From positions 1-43,314 of the IMG/VR virus record IMGVR_UViG_3300020470_000039: a stretch of DNA of 43,314 nucleotides. One strand, 5' to 3'. The notes below the pieces were generated by a model. The model was not told the DNA's origin and searched no databases. It worked only from the letters and a program-made list of their open reading frames with translations. This document shows positions 3,897-30,640 of this stretch, piece by piece. Numbering within the stretch: the first letter of the stretch is position 1; every line of letters begins with the position of its first letter. The translations under genes were made by a program, and so were the position numbers. This stretch comes from a virus.

Positions 3897-4196
3897 TTAT
3901 GATGAATAAAGATTTCCCCTTTTAAAACTGTTGCGTAAGAATCCCCACTTATCATATACTACAGGAAATGTTACAGCCTTGTAACGTAACTCCTCAAACT
4001 CTTCTTGTGATAGAGTCCAGTTAAGAATCTTCCACACGTTACGTGCATTCCTACACTTACGTGATTTAAATAGTCTCATCTTCCACTTGTGCTCAGTCTC
4101 CTCAAATGTTGGTGGATACTGTGCGTATAATGCTTGAGCGTTCACAGTATTGTGAGCAGCATTATCATATGTTTGATAATAAAACTTGGTGGTCAT
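3897..4196 (-). CDS. Hypothetical phage protein, 99 aa
   Basis: A 99-residue basic, aromatic-rich protein starting MTTKFYYQTY, with a Lys/Arg cluster in the middle (KMRLFKSRKCRNARN). Nucleic-acid binding would fit the charge but no fold is recognised. It starts at the base where the upstream gene 4196-4435 ends. Confidence 0.6.
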   Translation of the reverse strand: MTTKFYYQTYDNAAHNTVNAQALYAQYPPTFEETEHKWKMRLFKSRKCRNARNVWKILNWTLSQEEFEELRYKAVTFPVVYDKWGFLRNSFKRGNLYSS

Positions 4197-4435
4197 TACT
4201 CAACCTCCTCAAAGTAAATACCATGAAGTGCATTGAATGCCTCAAGATTTAAATAATCATCATCTTGATACTTCATGCAGTCAGCATCATCAGGTGCTAC
4301 AATAAACTCTTCACAGAAATACTCTGCGTTAACACCTACAGTACAAGCAGCATGAATAAGTTCATCAGTCTGCTCGAAGTTGCATCCTAGTTGTTGGACA
4401 CAGTACTCAACGTCTTCAATTAGTTGGTTGAACAT
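4196..4435 (-). CDS. Hypothetical acidic phage protein, 79 aa
   Basis: A 79-residue acidic protein starting MFNQLIEDVE, containing several Cys residues. It begins 16 bases after the U-run that ends the structured RNA at 4451-4658, so readthrough of that terminator could express it; otherwise its promoter is not evident. Function unknown. Confidence 0.6.
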   Translation of the reverse strand: MFNQLIEDVEYCVQQLGCNFEQTDELIHAACTVGVNAEYFCEEFIVAPDDADCMKYQDDDYLNLEAFNALHGIYFEEVE

Positions 4436-4450
4436 GACTGTTTAATAAAG

Positions 4451-4658
4451 AAAAAAGGTGTTGAGGGAGTGGGGCATCATGACGGGTTTCACCCGAATGC
4501 CCAAATTTACCCTACGGGAATCGCTTACACCTGTACCCCCACCACTTTCAACCATCAGTCTTATGTGTGCTGTGATAGGTTTCTACCAACCTCATGTCCA
4601 CGCTTCTAAGTCGTGGCGGTCAGTAGGTTTGGGGCGTAGGAACCACATATCCCTCAAC
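4451..4658 (-). ncRNA. Novel structured RNA, about 208 nt
   Basis: The RNA is predicted to start at G4658, seven bases after a consensus -10 box, and to end in six U residues (4456-4451). Its two ends pair perfectly: GUUGAGGGA (4658-4650) with UCCCUCAAC (4468-4460). Inside are several clear helices. One is CUACUGACC with GGUUGGUAG (4626-4618 and 4591-4583), enclosing CCACG/CGUGG. Another is AACC-AUCA with UGAUGGUU (4581-4573 and 4557-4550). A long hairpin pairs GGGCAU with AUGCCC and CGGGU with ACCCG around a three-base loop (4502-4472). No credible protein frame uses the stretch. It does not look like 6S (not rod-like), tmRNA, RNase P or SRP RNA. Class and function are unknown. Confidence 0.75.
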
Positions 4659-4664
4659 TTTTAT

Positions 4665-4693
4665 ATAATAACACTGATTAAAGGGAGTGTCAA
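4665..4693 (-). promoter_or_regulatory. Consensus sigma70 promoter of the structured RNA
   Basis: On the minus strand TTGACA (4693-4688), exactly 17 bases, then TATTAT (4670-4665). This is a perfect -35 box with optimal spacing and a one-mismatch -10 box, the strongest housekeeping promoter seen in the window. It predicts transcription by unmodified host polymerase from about 4658. Confidence 0.8.
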
Positions 4694-4724
4694 GACCTTG
4701 TGGACAGTAAGAGAACTGTCTATA

Positions 4725-4820
4725 CTAGACTGAACGTGCCTCCTGAATCAGATACTGTTCGATAACAGCAAGGAGCTGATTACCATTCTGTGCTGCTTCA
4801 AGTGCTTCAAAGATGTTCAT
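4725..4820 (-). CDS. Small protein, 31 aa
   Basis: ATG 4820 to TAG 4727-4725. The product starts MNIFEALEAA and is an amphipathic, probably single-helix peptide. An AAGGGAA ribosome site lies about nine bases before the ATG. It ends about 30 bases before the -35 box of the structured RNA gene. The ribosome site and biased composition support it; function unknown. Confidence 0.5.
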   Translation of the reverse strand: MNIFEALEAAQNGNQLLAVIEQYLIQEARSV

Positions 4821-27798: not shown

Positions 27799-28411
27799 GT
27801 GGAACAAAGTAGTTGAAGTTTATCACAGATTTAAATCTGGTGTCAATTTGACTAACTCCTCTATGTTTTATATTGCTAGGAAATGTTATAAACCTGTTAG
27901 CGACACAGTTTACAGTAGAACCATCCTCAAACTCAGTATAACCATCATTTGTATTTAAATAAAATATTGATGTGGTCATAGTGTTGCAAGGAAGATACAT
28001 CTCCTGATCTTTTTCTGATACATTAGAAAAATACGTATGATCTGGATCTGATCTCTTGTTTACCTTCTTAGAATAATCCCAGTGAAATTCACTTTTAAAT
28101 CTCTCTGGTTTTAATGGTTCTAAGTTCGCTTTTACCTTATAGATGGCGAGAAATTCCATTCTCTCTAAGATAGGAATCAATTTCTCAAAATAAGGAGATT
28201 GTTTATAGGTCAACCCACCAAAATGACTCTCCATTCTAAAAAATGGGTGAGTAAACTGATAGTTCTCTAAATGATCCCAATCCTCCCCGTTAACTTTATG
28301 CTCACCATAATACCAAGGCAACTCTCCAAACAACATAAACTGCCTTAGATCGTTGAATTCCTTCTTTGAAAGGAAATCATCCACTAAGCTTATATTTAGA
28401 TTGTTAGTCAT
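27794..28411 (-). CDS. Putative 2OG/Fe(II) oxygenase
   Basis: A 205-residue protein. EFHWDYSKK gives His-x-Asp, TTSIFYLNTNDGYTEFEDGS gives the core strands, RFITFPSNIKHRGV the distal His, and RFKSVINFNYF the Arg and final strand, so all the expected ligands are present. It overlaps the halogenase gene by 8 bases, implying coupled expression. Substrate unknown; joint action with the halogenase on one metabolite or protein is possible but not shown. Confidence 0.78.
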   Translation of the reverse strand: MTNNLNISLVDDFLSKKEFNDLRQFMLFGELPWYYGEHKVNGEDWDHLENYQFTHPFFRMESHFGGLTYKQSPYFEKLIPILERMEFLAIYKVKANLEPLKPERFKSEFHWDYSKKVNKRSDPDHTYFSNVSEKDQEMYLPCNTMTTSIFYLNTNDGYTEFEDGSTVNCVANRFITFPSNIKHRGVSQIDTRFKSVINFNYFVPQ

Positions 28412-29993
28412 TATTAAGGTTCTTCAGTTGAAATTCTTTTCCAAATGGGACTACACCTGTTCCTCTTTTCTCTGTATGATGCATTCTCCATCCAGCTTTT
28501 TTAGGATCTAAGTTAGCTAAAACACCTTTTTGCGAAACCCATTTAATCTTCTTCCTGTTCATCTCTAGAAACTCATGTTGTTTCTTTGCTAACTCGTATG
28601 CCTCTCTTGGTTCTGTCTGATACATCAGATAGTTTTTAATAGACTCATACTTAAACAACTTCAGTCCTCTAGCAACCTGAATATAATTGTCCAGACCCCA
28701 CTGTGATCGTTTCCTACTTGATACAGGACCATTACCAAATGCAGTAGCATCTAAGAACTCCTTATCACACTTCTCTATAATATCTTTACACCATTCAGTT
28801 CTATGAGTCTTCATATACCTCCAGAACTCAGAATCCTCCCTGTCTGTAACATAATGGAATGCAATAAACTCACATGTATCTGCCCATAGATCTTCATTAA
28901 CAGCATTATAATTCTTTCTGGACAACTCAAGATTATTGAAAGCAGGGTTATAAGCATTGAAATCATACACCTGTTTAATAATACCGTGAATAGAAGTTGC
29001 CTCTAATGGTTCTGCAAATCCACTAGCAAGACCAATTGCTAAACAATTACCAATCCATGCCTCTTTATAATATCCTGGTTTATATCTGATAATTCTATCA
29101 GTATCAAGACCTGTACCAAATTCATTCTTCAACCAAACATCATATTTCTCTCTTGCTTCTTCATCAGAAGTGAATTTAGAAGAATATAAAAATCCAGTAC
29201 CCCACCTATTTCCAATAGGAATTTTCCATATCCACCCAACATCAGTTGCTTCACATACTGTATATGATGGAACTTCTTCAAACTCATAAGGAACTTGTTG
29301 TGGTATTGCTCTATCTAATGGAAGATACCATGAAGTATCAATCCATTGTGGATTCAAGTGCTTAAACAATACAGTATTAAAACCAGAAGCATCTATAAAG
29401 AAATCTGCTTCAACTCTACGTCCATCCTCAAGTTCTATATGTTGTATATTCTTACATTCTGGATCAACTCGTACCTTATCTACAACAGCATCAGTAAATT
29501 TTACTTTATGGGAATTAGTTAACCTCTTAAATAAGAAATCTGAAAAATTCTTAGTATCGATGTGTAATGCATGATTATACCTCCTAAAATCCCTATCAGG
29601 TACTTTTGTGCTTTTCTTGTTGTATAATACTCCACCATTGTACTTTTTCTCTAATAAAGAATAGACAGTACTTGATAAAACATTCTCTCCTTCATCAATA
29701 CCACCTAATTCGGCAAATCCATGAAAATAACTCTCATTTGGTCTCCAATTCTTAAAATCAATACCTAATTTTACACTACCACCACATTCTCTAAGAATCT
29801 CTTCACTACTCGTACCCGTTAACTGACAGAATAAACCCGTAAGAAATGGAGTAGTACTCTCTCCTACACCAATATTCTTTGCTCTAGAGTCATATATTAC
29901 TTCTACCTCGACTCTATTATTCCAGCATCCTTTAATTAGCGAAGCAGCGATCAATCCTGCACTACCAGCACCAACGATAACGATCTTTTTCAT
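28404..29993 (-). CDS. Flavin-dependent tryptophan-halogenase-like protein
   Basis: A 529-residue protein with the FAD-binding G-x-G-x-x-G (IVIVGAGSAGLIAA) at the very N-terminus, the GWIWKIP motif at residues 253-259, Lys75 in SVKLGIDF and Glu331 in EPLEATS. The last two match, as I align it, the catalytic Lys79 and Glu346 of PrnA. The motif set is therefore complete for halogenating an aromatic substrate with FADH2, O2 and halide; a flavin reductase must come from the host. The start at 29993 puts the Rossmann motif in its usual place; a GTG at 30023 would add 10 residues. Such genes occur in cyanophages, and the true substrate is unknown. Confidence 0.87.
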   Translation of the reverse strand: MKKIVIVGAGSAGLIAASLIKGCWNNRVEVEVIYDSRAKNIGVGESTTPFLTGLFCQLTGTSSEEILRECGGSVKLGIDFKNWRPNESYFHGFAELGGIDEGENVLSSTVYSLLEKKYNGGVLYNKKSTKVPDRDFRRYNHALHIDTKNFSDFLFKRLTNSHKVKFTDAVVDKVRVDPECKNIQHIELEDGRRVEADFFIDASGFNTVLFKHLNPQWIDTSWYLPLDRAIPQQVPYEFEEVPSYTVCEATDVGWIWKIPIGNRWGTGFLYSSKFTSDEEAREKYDVWLKNEFGTGLDTDRIIRYKPGYYKEAWIGNCLAIGLASGFAEPLEATSIHGIIKQVYDFNAYNPAFNNLELSRKNYNAVNEDLWADTCEFIAFHYVTDREDSEFWRYMKTHRTEWCKDIIEKCDKEFLDATAFGNGPVSSRKRSQWGLDNYIQVARGLKLFKYESIKNYLMYQTEPREAYELAKKQHEFLEMNRKKIKWVSQKGVLANLDPKKAGWRMHHTEKRGTGVVPFGKEFQLKNLNND

Positions 29994-30029
29994 GAAAATT
30001 TTACCAGAGAAATTTTTCGCCACTCCTAT

Positions 30030-30037
30030 TATTTAGA
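30030..30037 (-). promoter_or_regulatory. Possible late box upstream of the halogenase
   Basis: TCTAAATA on the minus strand, a one-base variant of TATAAATA, 37 bases before ATG 29993 and just after a GC-rich hairpin (30038-30054). The same variant occurs at 31473-31480 and 42209-42216. Confidence 0.35.
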
Positions 30038-30058
30038 GGGGGCATTTCACCCCCAATG

Positions 30059-30331
30059 AGTCACTTGGGTAACAAGGCTGACTTAACCCCGATCACTTGT
30101 CCTTAGACAGTCGCCAATTGGCGAGCATTCGCAGTAGGAATGCGAGTGAATGCTACGATGTTATTCGCAGCAGGTGTATCTGTTTTGGCAGATATGGTTT
30201 GCTTATCCAAGCAGGTTTCAGTCACGATCCATAACACCCTGTCGAAACCTGGGCATCCCCCCGAAATGGAGATGAGGGGAATCGAACCCCTGTCCAGAAT
30301 ATCGGTGTCGTCACCTATCCTCAAAAGAGGA
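30059..30331 (-). ncRNA. ssrA: Permuted (two-piece) tmRNA
   Basis: The acceptor half comes first in the gene: T-arm AGGGG-UUCGAUU-CCCCU, then CAUCUCC and A at 30267. After six spacer bases (30266-30261) the second half starts GGGGAUG at 30260, which pairs with CAUCUCC to form a full seven-pair acceptor stem. It is followed by the conserved GGUUUCGACAGGG. A short open frame with a cyanobacterial-type tag follows (30168-30103), then a terminal hairpin (30083-30059). This order is that of the circularly permuted tmRNA of marine cyanobacteria, matured to two RNAs. It rescues stalled ribosomes. Outer ends are approximate; CCA is not encoded. Confidence 0.85.
30103..30168 (-). other. tmRNA tag-peptide reading frame
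   Basis: Reading from GCG 30168 to TAA 30105-30103 gives a 21-residue tag that begins ANNIVAFTR and ends RQLATV. The start matches what I recall of marine cyanobacterial tags (ANNIV.FSR or ANKIVSFSR), which end in VAA. Here the C-terminus is longer and ends in Thr-Val. The resume codon could also be the preceding GCT, adding one Ala. Confidence 0.7.
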
Positions 30332-30403
30332 AGCCACCAGTCGGATTTGAACCAACGACCTTCGCTTTACAAAAGCGTTGCTCTACCACTGAGCTATGAT
30401 GGC
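30332..30403 (-). tRNA. tRNA-Thr (UGU)
   Basis: A cloverleaf with acceptor GCCATCA/TGGTGGC, D-arm GCTCAGTGGTAGAGC, anticodon loop TTTGTAA (anticodon TGT, reading ACA) and T-arm GTTGG-TTCAAAT-CCGAC. The discriminator base is T and CCA is not encoded. Last tRNA of the cluster, directly before the tmRNA. Confidence 0.88.
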
Positions 30404-30413
30404 AAAAAATTAG

Positions 30414-30487
30414 TAGGAGTGATGAGATTTGAACTCACACTGTGACGATTTTAAGTCGTCTGTCTCTACCAATTGGACTACACTCCC
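30414..30487 (-). tRNA. tRNA with UAA anticodon (Leu), short variable arm
   Basis: Acceptor GGGAGTG/CACTCCT with a first G-U pair and discriminator A, anticodon stem GACGA/TCGTC around CTTAAAA (anticodon TAA, reading TTA), and T-arm GTGAG-TTCAAAT-CTCAT. The variable region is only five bases (ACAGT), whereas bacterial tRNA-Leu normally has a long arm. The D-arm pairs only three bases (GTC/GAC). Confidence 0.8.
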
Positions 30488-30490
30488 TGG

Positions 30491-30564
30491 CGACTCAGGT
30501 AGGATTTGAACCTACGACCGATTGCTTAGAAGGCAATTGCTCTTGTCCACTGAGCTACTGAGTC
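30491..30564 (-). tRNA. tRNA-Arg (UCU)
   Basis: A regular cloverleaf: acceptor GACTCAG/CTGAGTC, D-arm GCTC...GAGC, anticodon stem ATTGC/GCAAT with loop CTTCTAA (anticodon TCT, reading AGA), and T-arm GTAGG-TTCAAAT-CCTAC. Discriminator G; CCA not encoded. Confidence 0.9.
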
Positions 30565-30568
30565 AAGG

Positions 30569-30640
30569 TAGGACTGTCGGGAATTGAACCCGATTCACAC
30601 CGTTATAAGCAGTGGGCCTTAACCAATAGGCGACGGTCCC
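30569..30640 (-). tRNA. tRNA-Ile (UAU)
   Basis: Acceptor GGGACCG/CAGTCCT with one C-A mismatch and a first G-U pair, anticodon stem CACTG/CGGTG with loop CTTATAA (anticodon TAT, reading ATA), T-arm TCGGG-TTCAATT-CCCGA and discriminator A. First tRNA of the cluster, 10 bases after cpeT, with which it is probably co-transcribed. Confidence 0.85.

Follow-up and report, generated by a model that had tools for sequence, protein, structure and literature searches.

The window analyzed here, a 43,314-nt stretch of viral DNA, carries a predicted RNA gene that is found in viruses of marine cyanobacteria and fits no catalogued RNA family. The RNA of the window is a core of about 115 nt combined with an exchangeable insert that elsewhere appears as a separate RNA domain, and we are highly confident that it represents a new class of structured RNA with exchangeable modules. 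Comparison of homologues shows the predicted fold, its strand, its phage-wide conservation, a copy number that is usually one, a promoter of its own in most cases, and the reciprocal nesting of its domains.

The RNA gene and its core fold

A sequence-only reading of this region had proposed a stand-alone, non-coding 208-nt RNA behind a sigma70 promoter, closed by a stem that opens on the start base itself. The promoter (TTGACA-17-TATTAT with an extended -10) is present and matches 11 of 12 consensus positions, and the start base, G4658, follows the -10 hexamer at a distance of 7 nt and opens P1, the perfect nine-pair closing stem formed by 4658-4650 with 4468-4460 (Table 1). A run of six U residues (U6) begins three bases beyond this stem. 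Because promoter-like sites overall are no commoner than in shuffled sequences (47 versus 46.4, background level), the promoter alone is weak proof. Single-sequence folding energy gives modest support for an RNA gene, with a minimum-energy fold of -71.2 kcal/mol (z = -2.3; 6 of 200 shuffles equally good), compared with z = -1.9 for the opposite strand. In agreement with the non-coding assignment, no open reading frame on the RNA strand reaches 60 aa. The RNA sits in a run of small genes, with genes for several 2OG-Fe(II) oxygenases, for a DNA methylase and for T4-like baseplate proteins nearby, and Pfam and PHROG searches with the 79-aa protein encoded downstream gave no match. Elsewhere in the window are a gene of the tryptophan-halogenase family (28404-30023) and a gene for a small SET-domain protein (2712-2996).

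Table 1. Coordinates of the RNA gene, its structural elements and its immediate context.
Feature	Position	Strand	Remarks
-35 hexamer TTGACA	4688..4693	-	with -10, 11/12 consensus matches; 17-nt spacer
-10 hexamer TATTAT and extended -10 TG	4665..4670	-	sigma70-type consensus scoring
Whole RNA as proposed	4451..4658	-	G4658 start, U6 end (4456-4451); ends inferred
P1 5' strand GUUGAGGGA	4650..4658	-	pairs with 4468-4460; 8/9 pairs with double-sided changes
P1 3' strand UCCCUCAAC	4460..4468	-	perfect 9-bp stem with 4658-4650
P1b 5' strand GUGG	4643..4646	-	pairs with 4472-4469 CCAC; GC:31 AU:13, UA:37 CG:12 AU:2
P2 5' strand CCUACG	4635..4640	-	pairs with 4516-4511 CGUAGG; 99.7% paired, 5/6 pairs covary
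P3 arm and exchangeable insert	4537..4634	-	CCCC 4634-4631 / GGGG 4540-4537
Domain A in insert	4583..4626	-	S1 4626-4619/4590-4583; S2 4616-4613/4601-4598
Remaining insert AAACCUAUCACAGCACACAUAAGACUGAUGGUUGAAAGUGGU	4541..4582	-	CAG/CUG hairpin (by inspection); CUG/CAG in relatives
Conserved single-stranded 20-nt loop GUACAGGUGUAAGCGAUUCC (GUUCAGGUGUAAGCGAUUCC)	4517..4536	-	leads back from P3 to P2
Junction strand GUAAAUUUG, P2 to P4	4502..4510	-	nearly invariant; outside search word
P4 (GGCA/UGCC) and P4b (CGGG UGAAA CCCG) hairpin	4473..4501	-	P4b cap UGAAA; P4 100%, P4b 97.5% paired; 6/8 pairs covary
ORF of 31 aa, MNIFEALEAAQNGNQLLAVIEQYLIQEARSV	4725..4820	-	context, upstream of promoter
Gene for 79-aa hypothetical protein	4196..4435	-	context, 15 nt downstream of U-run

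Relatives of the region were found by blastn in P-SSM2 (where the RNA would span 56,695-56,820), in P-SSM5 and in the genomes of four marine viruses from single cells, where they occupy intergenic, unannotated DNA wherever annotation exists. An 18-base word from the shared part matched at least 120 IMG/VR viral contigs; from the fetched viral loci, 121 usable copies of the core were extracted and an alignment of 51 sequences was built. The homologues were mostly collected by this exact 18-mer, and their counts are lower bounds; many come from similar samples and hence are not independent. A covariance model of the core, with E-values reaching 1e-33, finds one strong copy each in P-SSM2, P-SSM5 and 11 large contigs, two copies in one locus (L022), and none in P-SSM7 or S-SSM4. 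Among 390 cyanobacterial genomes there was no convincing copy of the core, nor was the pattern of the insert's domain A (described below) found in them. Two weak matches of the core model in these genomes miss the greater part of the conserved core and were taken as chance, and a 15-mer scan of bacterial genomes gave chance matches only, none having the flanking core.

The core is a three-way junction closed by P1 and P1b, with P2-P3 and P4 as its other arms. In the 51 sequences, 93.9% of the helix cells (30 pairs) are paired and 23 of the 30 core base pairs show double-sided compensatory changes, with a covariation score of 0.502 versus 0.179 after shuffling and 0.06-0.142 for slid partners. 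P2, for instance, also occurs as CUACUG/CAGUAG, CCUAUG/CAUAGG, CCAUAG/CUAUGG, CUCUAG/CUAGAG and GCUAUG/CAUAGC. Its 5' strand was originally located by complementarity and was rechecked in 34 copies where geometry fixes the partner, and in this selection-free subset 33 of 34 pair perfectly, versus a shuffled mean of 10.4. In well aligned rows, GU wobbles outnumber AC mismatches 23:1, and the minus strand is therefore the RNA strand. The insert lengths of homologues differ by numbers not divisible by 3, so that it is helices, not a reading frame, that the homologues keep. Overall, the comparative covariation is decisive support for the predicted structured RNA; the search for homologues and compensating changes that the sequence-only reading had proposed thus came out in its favor, and the multi-branched, non-6S-like shape that it had described covaries as a three-way junction.

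The conserved 20-nt loop partly coincides with the search word, and its invariance is therefore partly built in; homologues found without the word, by blastn and other routes, largely keep the loop too, with one changed base in L260. The internal arms had been drawn only partly right from the single sequence. An unconstrained fold of the window RNA mispairs P2 and P3 (base-pair probabilities 0.31 and 0.07). The completed comparative structure of the window RNA has -69.7 kcal/mol, 1.5 above the minimum. A GGG(U)/AUUCCC pairing in place of P3, given by the minimum-energy fold and by RNAalifold, was rejected, as it is broken in two sequences in which P3 covaries.

Exchange and nesting of domains

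The inserts carried by the P3 arm span 19-236 nt in homologues, with the same modules recurring among copies, and in many copies the arm is reduced to a minimal hairpin, CCCCGAUUAAGUUUGGGG. Domain A, which forms part of the insert in the window, is laid out as S1, a two-base link, the hairpin S2, whose internal loop GAC..UUAGAAGC is conserved, and then ACAUGA. Its S2 helix has 100% of cells paired, 36 double-sided changes and a covariation of 0.597 versus 0.139 after shuffling, and compensatory pair types are present in S1. Domain A stands alone in P-SSM7, S-SSM4 and S-SSM6b, directly after a promoter and with a long closing stem of its own, and it occurs with an empty loop in at least 78 viral contigs. 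In several copies the two loops of the domain A-type insert host other modules, and further modules enter after the GGUUGA of the insert (L090, L041, L060 and L280).

The nesting also occurs in reverse. In three independent loci (L098, L067 and L014) the core lies within the S2 loop of domain A, the inverted order reading CUCUGAC[core]AAGAAGCAGAG, and L066 and L076 are arranged alike. The proposal of a stand-alone 208-nt RNA thus holds in that there is a predicted RNA gene with its own promoter, but not in that the RNA would be a single entity. Among the modules, a list of which was drawn up by inspection, M3 (GCAAGGAUCUAUGGUUGUCUC..) was seen alone, in P3 of the core, in domain A and inside M2, and M5 was seen inside M7. 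M3 lies inside domain A in P-SSM5; in P-SSM2 the same site holds another insert and M3 is just downstream. None of the modules tested, M2-M11, was found in 0.92 Mb of bacterial control loci. These arrangements suggest that the viruses may assemble RNAs from interchangeable parts, much like protein domains.

Several further features of the modules were observed. The region of P-SSM2 at L003:3090-3400 and that of P-SSM5 at L004:600-900 constitute a natural experiment for the swapping of nested modules. In the viral loci analyzed, all 32 copies of M11 (GGAUGUGCC..hairpin..AACAUCC), including L003:3306-3390 of P-SSM2, have a 6-base palindrome directly after them; these palindromes are of five kinds (GCTAGC, CACGTG, CCTAGG, CCATGG and CTATAG), are often just upstream of a gene start, and could serve either for dimerisation of the RNA or as a recognition site in the DNA. 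M10, located downstream of the core (L010:6946, L018:3109, L092:5003 and others), resembles an H-type pseudoknot and has the covarying pairings CAACCC/GGGUUG, GGUAACCC/GGGUUAGC and GGUAUUCC/GGAAUAGC. In addition, a closing motif, GGCAU..GUAAGUCC, is common to many modules (e.g., in L003, L009, L017 and L092) and is possibly a generic adapter, and GTAAG[TA]CC was counted 111 times in the viral loci (1.03 Mb) versus 22 times in the control loci (0.92 Mb).

Probable action in trans and alternative explanations

A -10-like box stands immediately 5' of P1 in 86 of 119 homologues, in 10 of these just after an upstream terminator-like hairpin. The U6 run after the closing stem, to which the sequence-only reading had pointed, is present in the window, but terminator-like ends are not general, since TTTT within 12 nt after P1 is found in 20 of 113 homologues and the U-run is thus not conserved. 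Some cores follow other modules or lack a U-run and so may belong to longer transcripts. Conserved flanking ORFs are on the same strand as the RNA in 398 cases versus 29 on the opposite strand. A promoter before P1, a single copy and varied next genes together speak more for an independent RNA gene than for the leader of one gene, and the RNA is probably trans-acting rather than cis-acting. When the window and parts of P-SSM2 were searched for antisense targets of the conserved loop, the RNA itself was the only match at up to 4 mismatches. Another upstream context, GGGGG.CGNNTAAAGTGTN(6-9)GTGTGAGGG, was seen in L006, L016, L018, L019, L100 and others, many copies of this type having no obvious sigma70 -10; it is possibly another promoter class. 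DNA methylases flank a number of homologues.

A cis-acting leader of the downstream gene (riboswitch, antiterminator or attenuator), in which P1 and the U-run would form a switchable terminator, is unlikely. The next ATG in the window is 15 nt past the U-run, a distance that would allow for a leader, the conserved single-stranded loops are aptamer-like, and the minority of copies with a U-run after P1 would suit a terminator. However, instead of a coherent gene set at constant distance, the next gene downstream belongs to 19 families at distances of -29 to 845 nt, the commonest family accounting for 18 of 92, and this variation makes a single-gene cis switch unlikely. Furthermore, the core is usually present once per genome, most copies lack the U-run, and where the core is nested in another RNA its P1 is no terminator of a following gene.

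That the modules are a family of mobile DNA elements (MITE-like or double-hairpin-like), whose hairpins act as DNA in transposition and look like RNA only as a by-product, is improbable. Their positions in loops, in tandem and nested within each other, and the presence or absence of modules between close relatives, would be expected of such elements, and mobile-element behavior may explain the spread of the modules. However, the 23:1 ratio of GU to AC and the strand bias shared with the genes indicate RNA, a promoter is conserved before P1, the core is single copy, and inspection by eye revealed neither terminal repeats nor duplicated targets.

It is quite improbable that the core and modules are catalytic RNAs or processed precursors, i.e., small ribozymes or RNase substrates through which the RNAs mature. 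The strong conservation of the junction strands and the existence of compact modules that resemble pseudoknots, such as M10, would be compatible with this, but Rfam gives no ribozyme match in the window (E<=10) or in six homologous loci (E<=0.5), and there is no consistent context for a cleavage site. Chance structure in ordinary intergenic DNA, to which the folding z of only -2.3 and the background level of the promoter scan might point, has a negligible probability, being already contradicted by the comparative data: the strong covariation in 51 homologues, the covariance-model E-values and the lack of the modules in the bacterial control loci.

We therefore lean towards a phage-encoded, independently transcribed, trans-acting structured RNA composed of autonomous, exchangeable domains that bind partners. 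Because each domain is separately conserved, the order of nesting is irrelevant and the neighbors vary, we infer that each domain would act alone in trans, most simply by binding. The core, with its GUGUAAGCGAUUCC and GUAAAUUUGG strands, three-way junction and UGAAA-capped P4b, and each of the modules would be putative binding sites for specific partners, the likeliest of which would be host or phage proteins. Through nesting, several domains could share a single promoter for their expression and a single closing stem for their protection. The leading guess is that the RNA serves early in infection as a decoy or scaffold, and one that binds a host or phage protein is put forward tentatively; the early, abundant expression and the sequestration of a host protein suggested by the sequence-only reading would likewise be guesses. 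Cyanophages manipulate host RNA turnover, for example by RNase E induction (PMC9692554), so that a nuclease or RNA-binding protein would be a reasonable first candidate.

A wider reading, conceivable and rather doubtful, would be a combinatorial cyanophage RNA toolkit, in which a dozen or so autonomous domains with their own partners are shuffled by mutual nesting. If so, one transcript would be a polycistronic scaffold used in taking over the host or in countering its defences, and the RNA of the window would be a two-domain assembly. Shuffling of domains by mutual nesting is typical of the way proteins evolve, and we are not aware of any natural RNA system described so far whose independent structured domains replace each other, join in tandem and nest reciprocally. 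Searches of open-access full texts turned up neither the present RNA nor a reciprocal nesting of structured RNA domains. Since the RNA occurs in the cultured phages P-SSM2 and P-SSM5, its expression, partners and deletion phenotypes are directly testable. The system sits in abundant ocean viruses, and its RNA families, as yet unannotated, could be added to Rfam and used with viral metatranscriptomes.

Comparison with known RNA classes and elements

In line with the earlier statement that the RNA is of no recognized class, Rfam 15 gave no match at gathering cut-offs, none on 4400-4760 when the threshold was relaxed to E<=10, and none at E<=0.5 in the six homologous loci; it does detect the tRNAs and tmRNA elsewhere in the window. 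ARAGORN and Rfam place tRNA and tmRNA genes only at 30012-30640; there, a phage tmRNA that fits the cyanobacterial and permuted Rfam models lies among four tRNA genes. 6S RNA is one long hairpin with a large central bubble. The present RNA is like it in being, as predicted, independently transcribed and in having a long closing stem, but it differs in its covarying three-way junction and conserved loop strands.

GOLLD, ROOL and OLE are large, ornate, multi-branched non-coding RNAs of bacteria and phages whose biochemical role is unknown (PMC12286853). The present RNA is likewise an orphan structured RNA with a multi-branched fold, but its core of about 115 nt is far smaller than the several hundred nt of GOLLD and ROOL, it has exchangeable nested domains, it is without an Rfam match, and nothing in the present analysis points to oligomer cages.

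The RNAs known from cyanophages include the wcaG, manA, glnA, PhotoRC-II and abiF motifs and CfrI; of these, wcaG, manA, glnA and PhotoRC-II are elements acting in cis on particular nearby genes, and CfrI is antisense to psbA (PMC2864571, PMC12197685). As with these, the RNA described here would be a structured or regulatory RNA of T4-like cyanophages, but its sequence and structure match none of their Rfam families. It is also not antisense in the manner of CfrI, being intergenic with neighbors on the same strand, although ORFs on the plus strand exist at the locus.

Finally, mobile double-hairpin elements and other small mobile sequences of bacteria insert into loops of structured regions (PMC2229807). 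The core does not occur in multiple copies per genome as a mobile element would, whereas the modules do show loop insertion and presence/absence polymorphism, and they resemble double-hairpin elements as small structured units inserted in the loops of others. Unlike such elements, the modules combine conserved sequence and predicted structure with promoters of their own when they stand alone, a strand bias and a GU bias.
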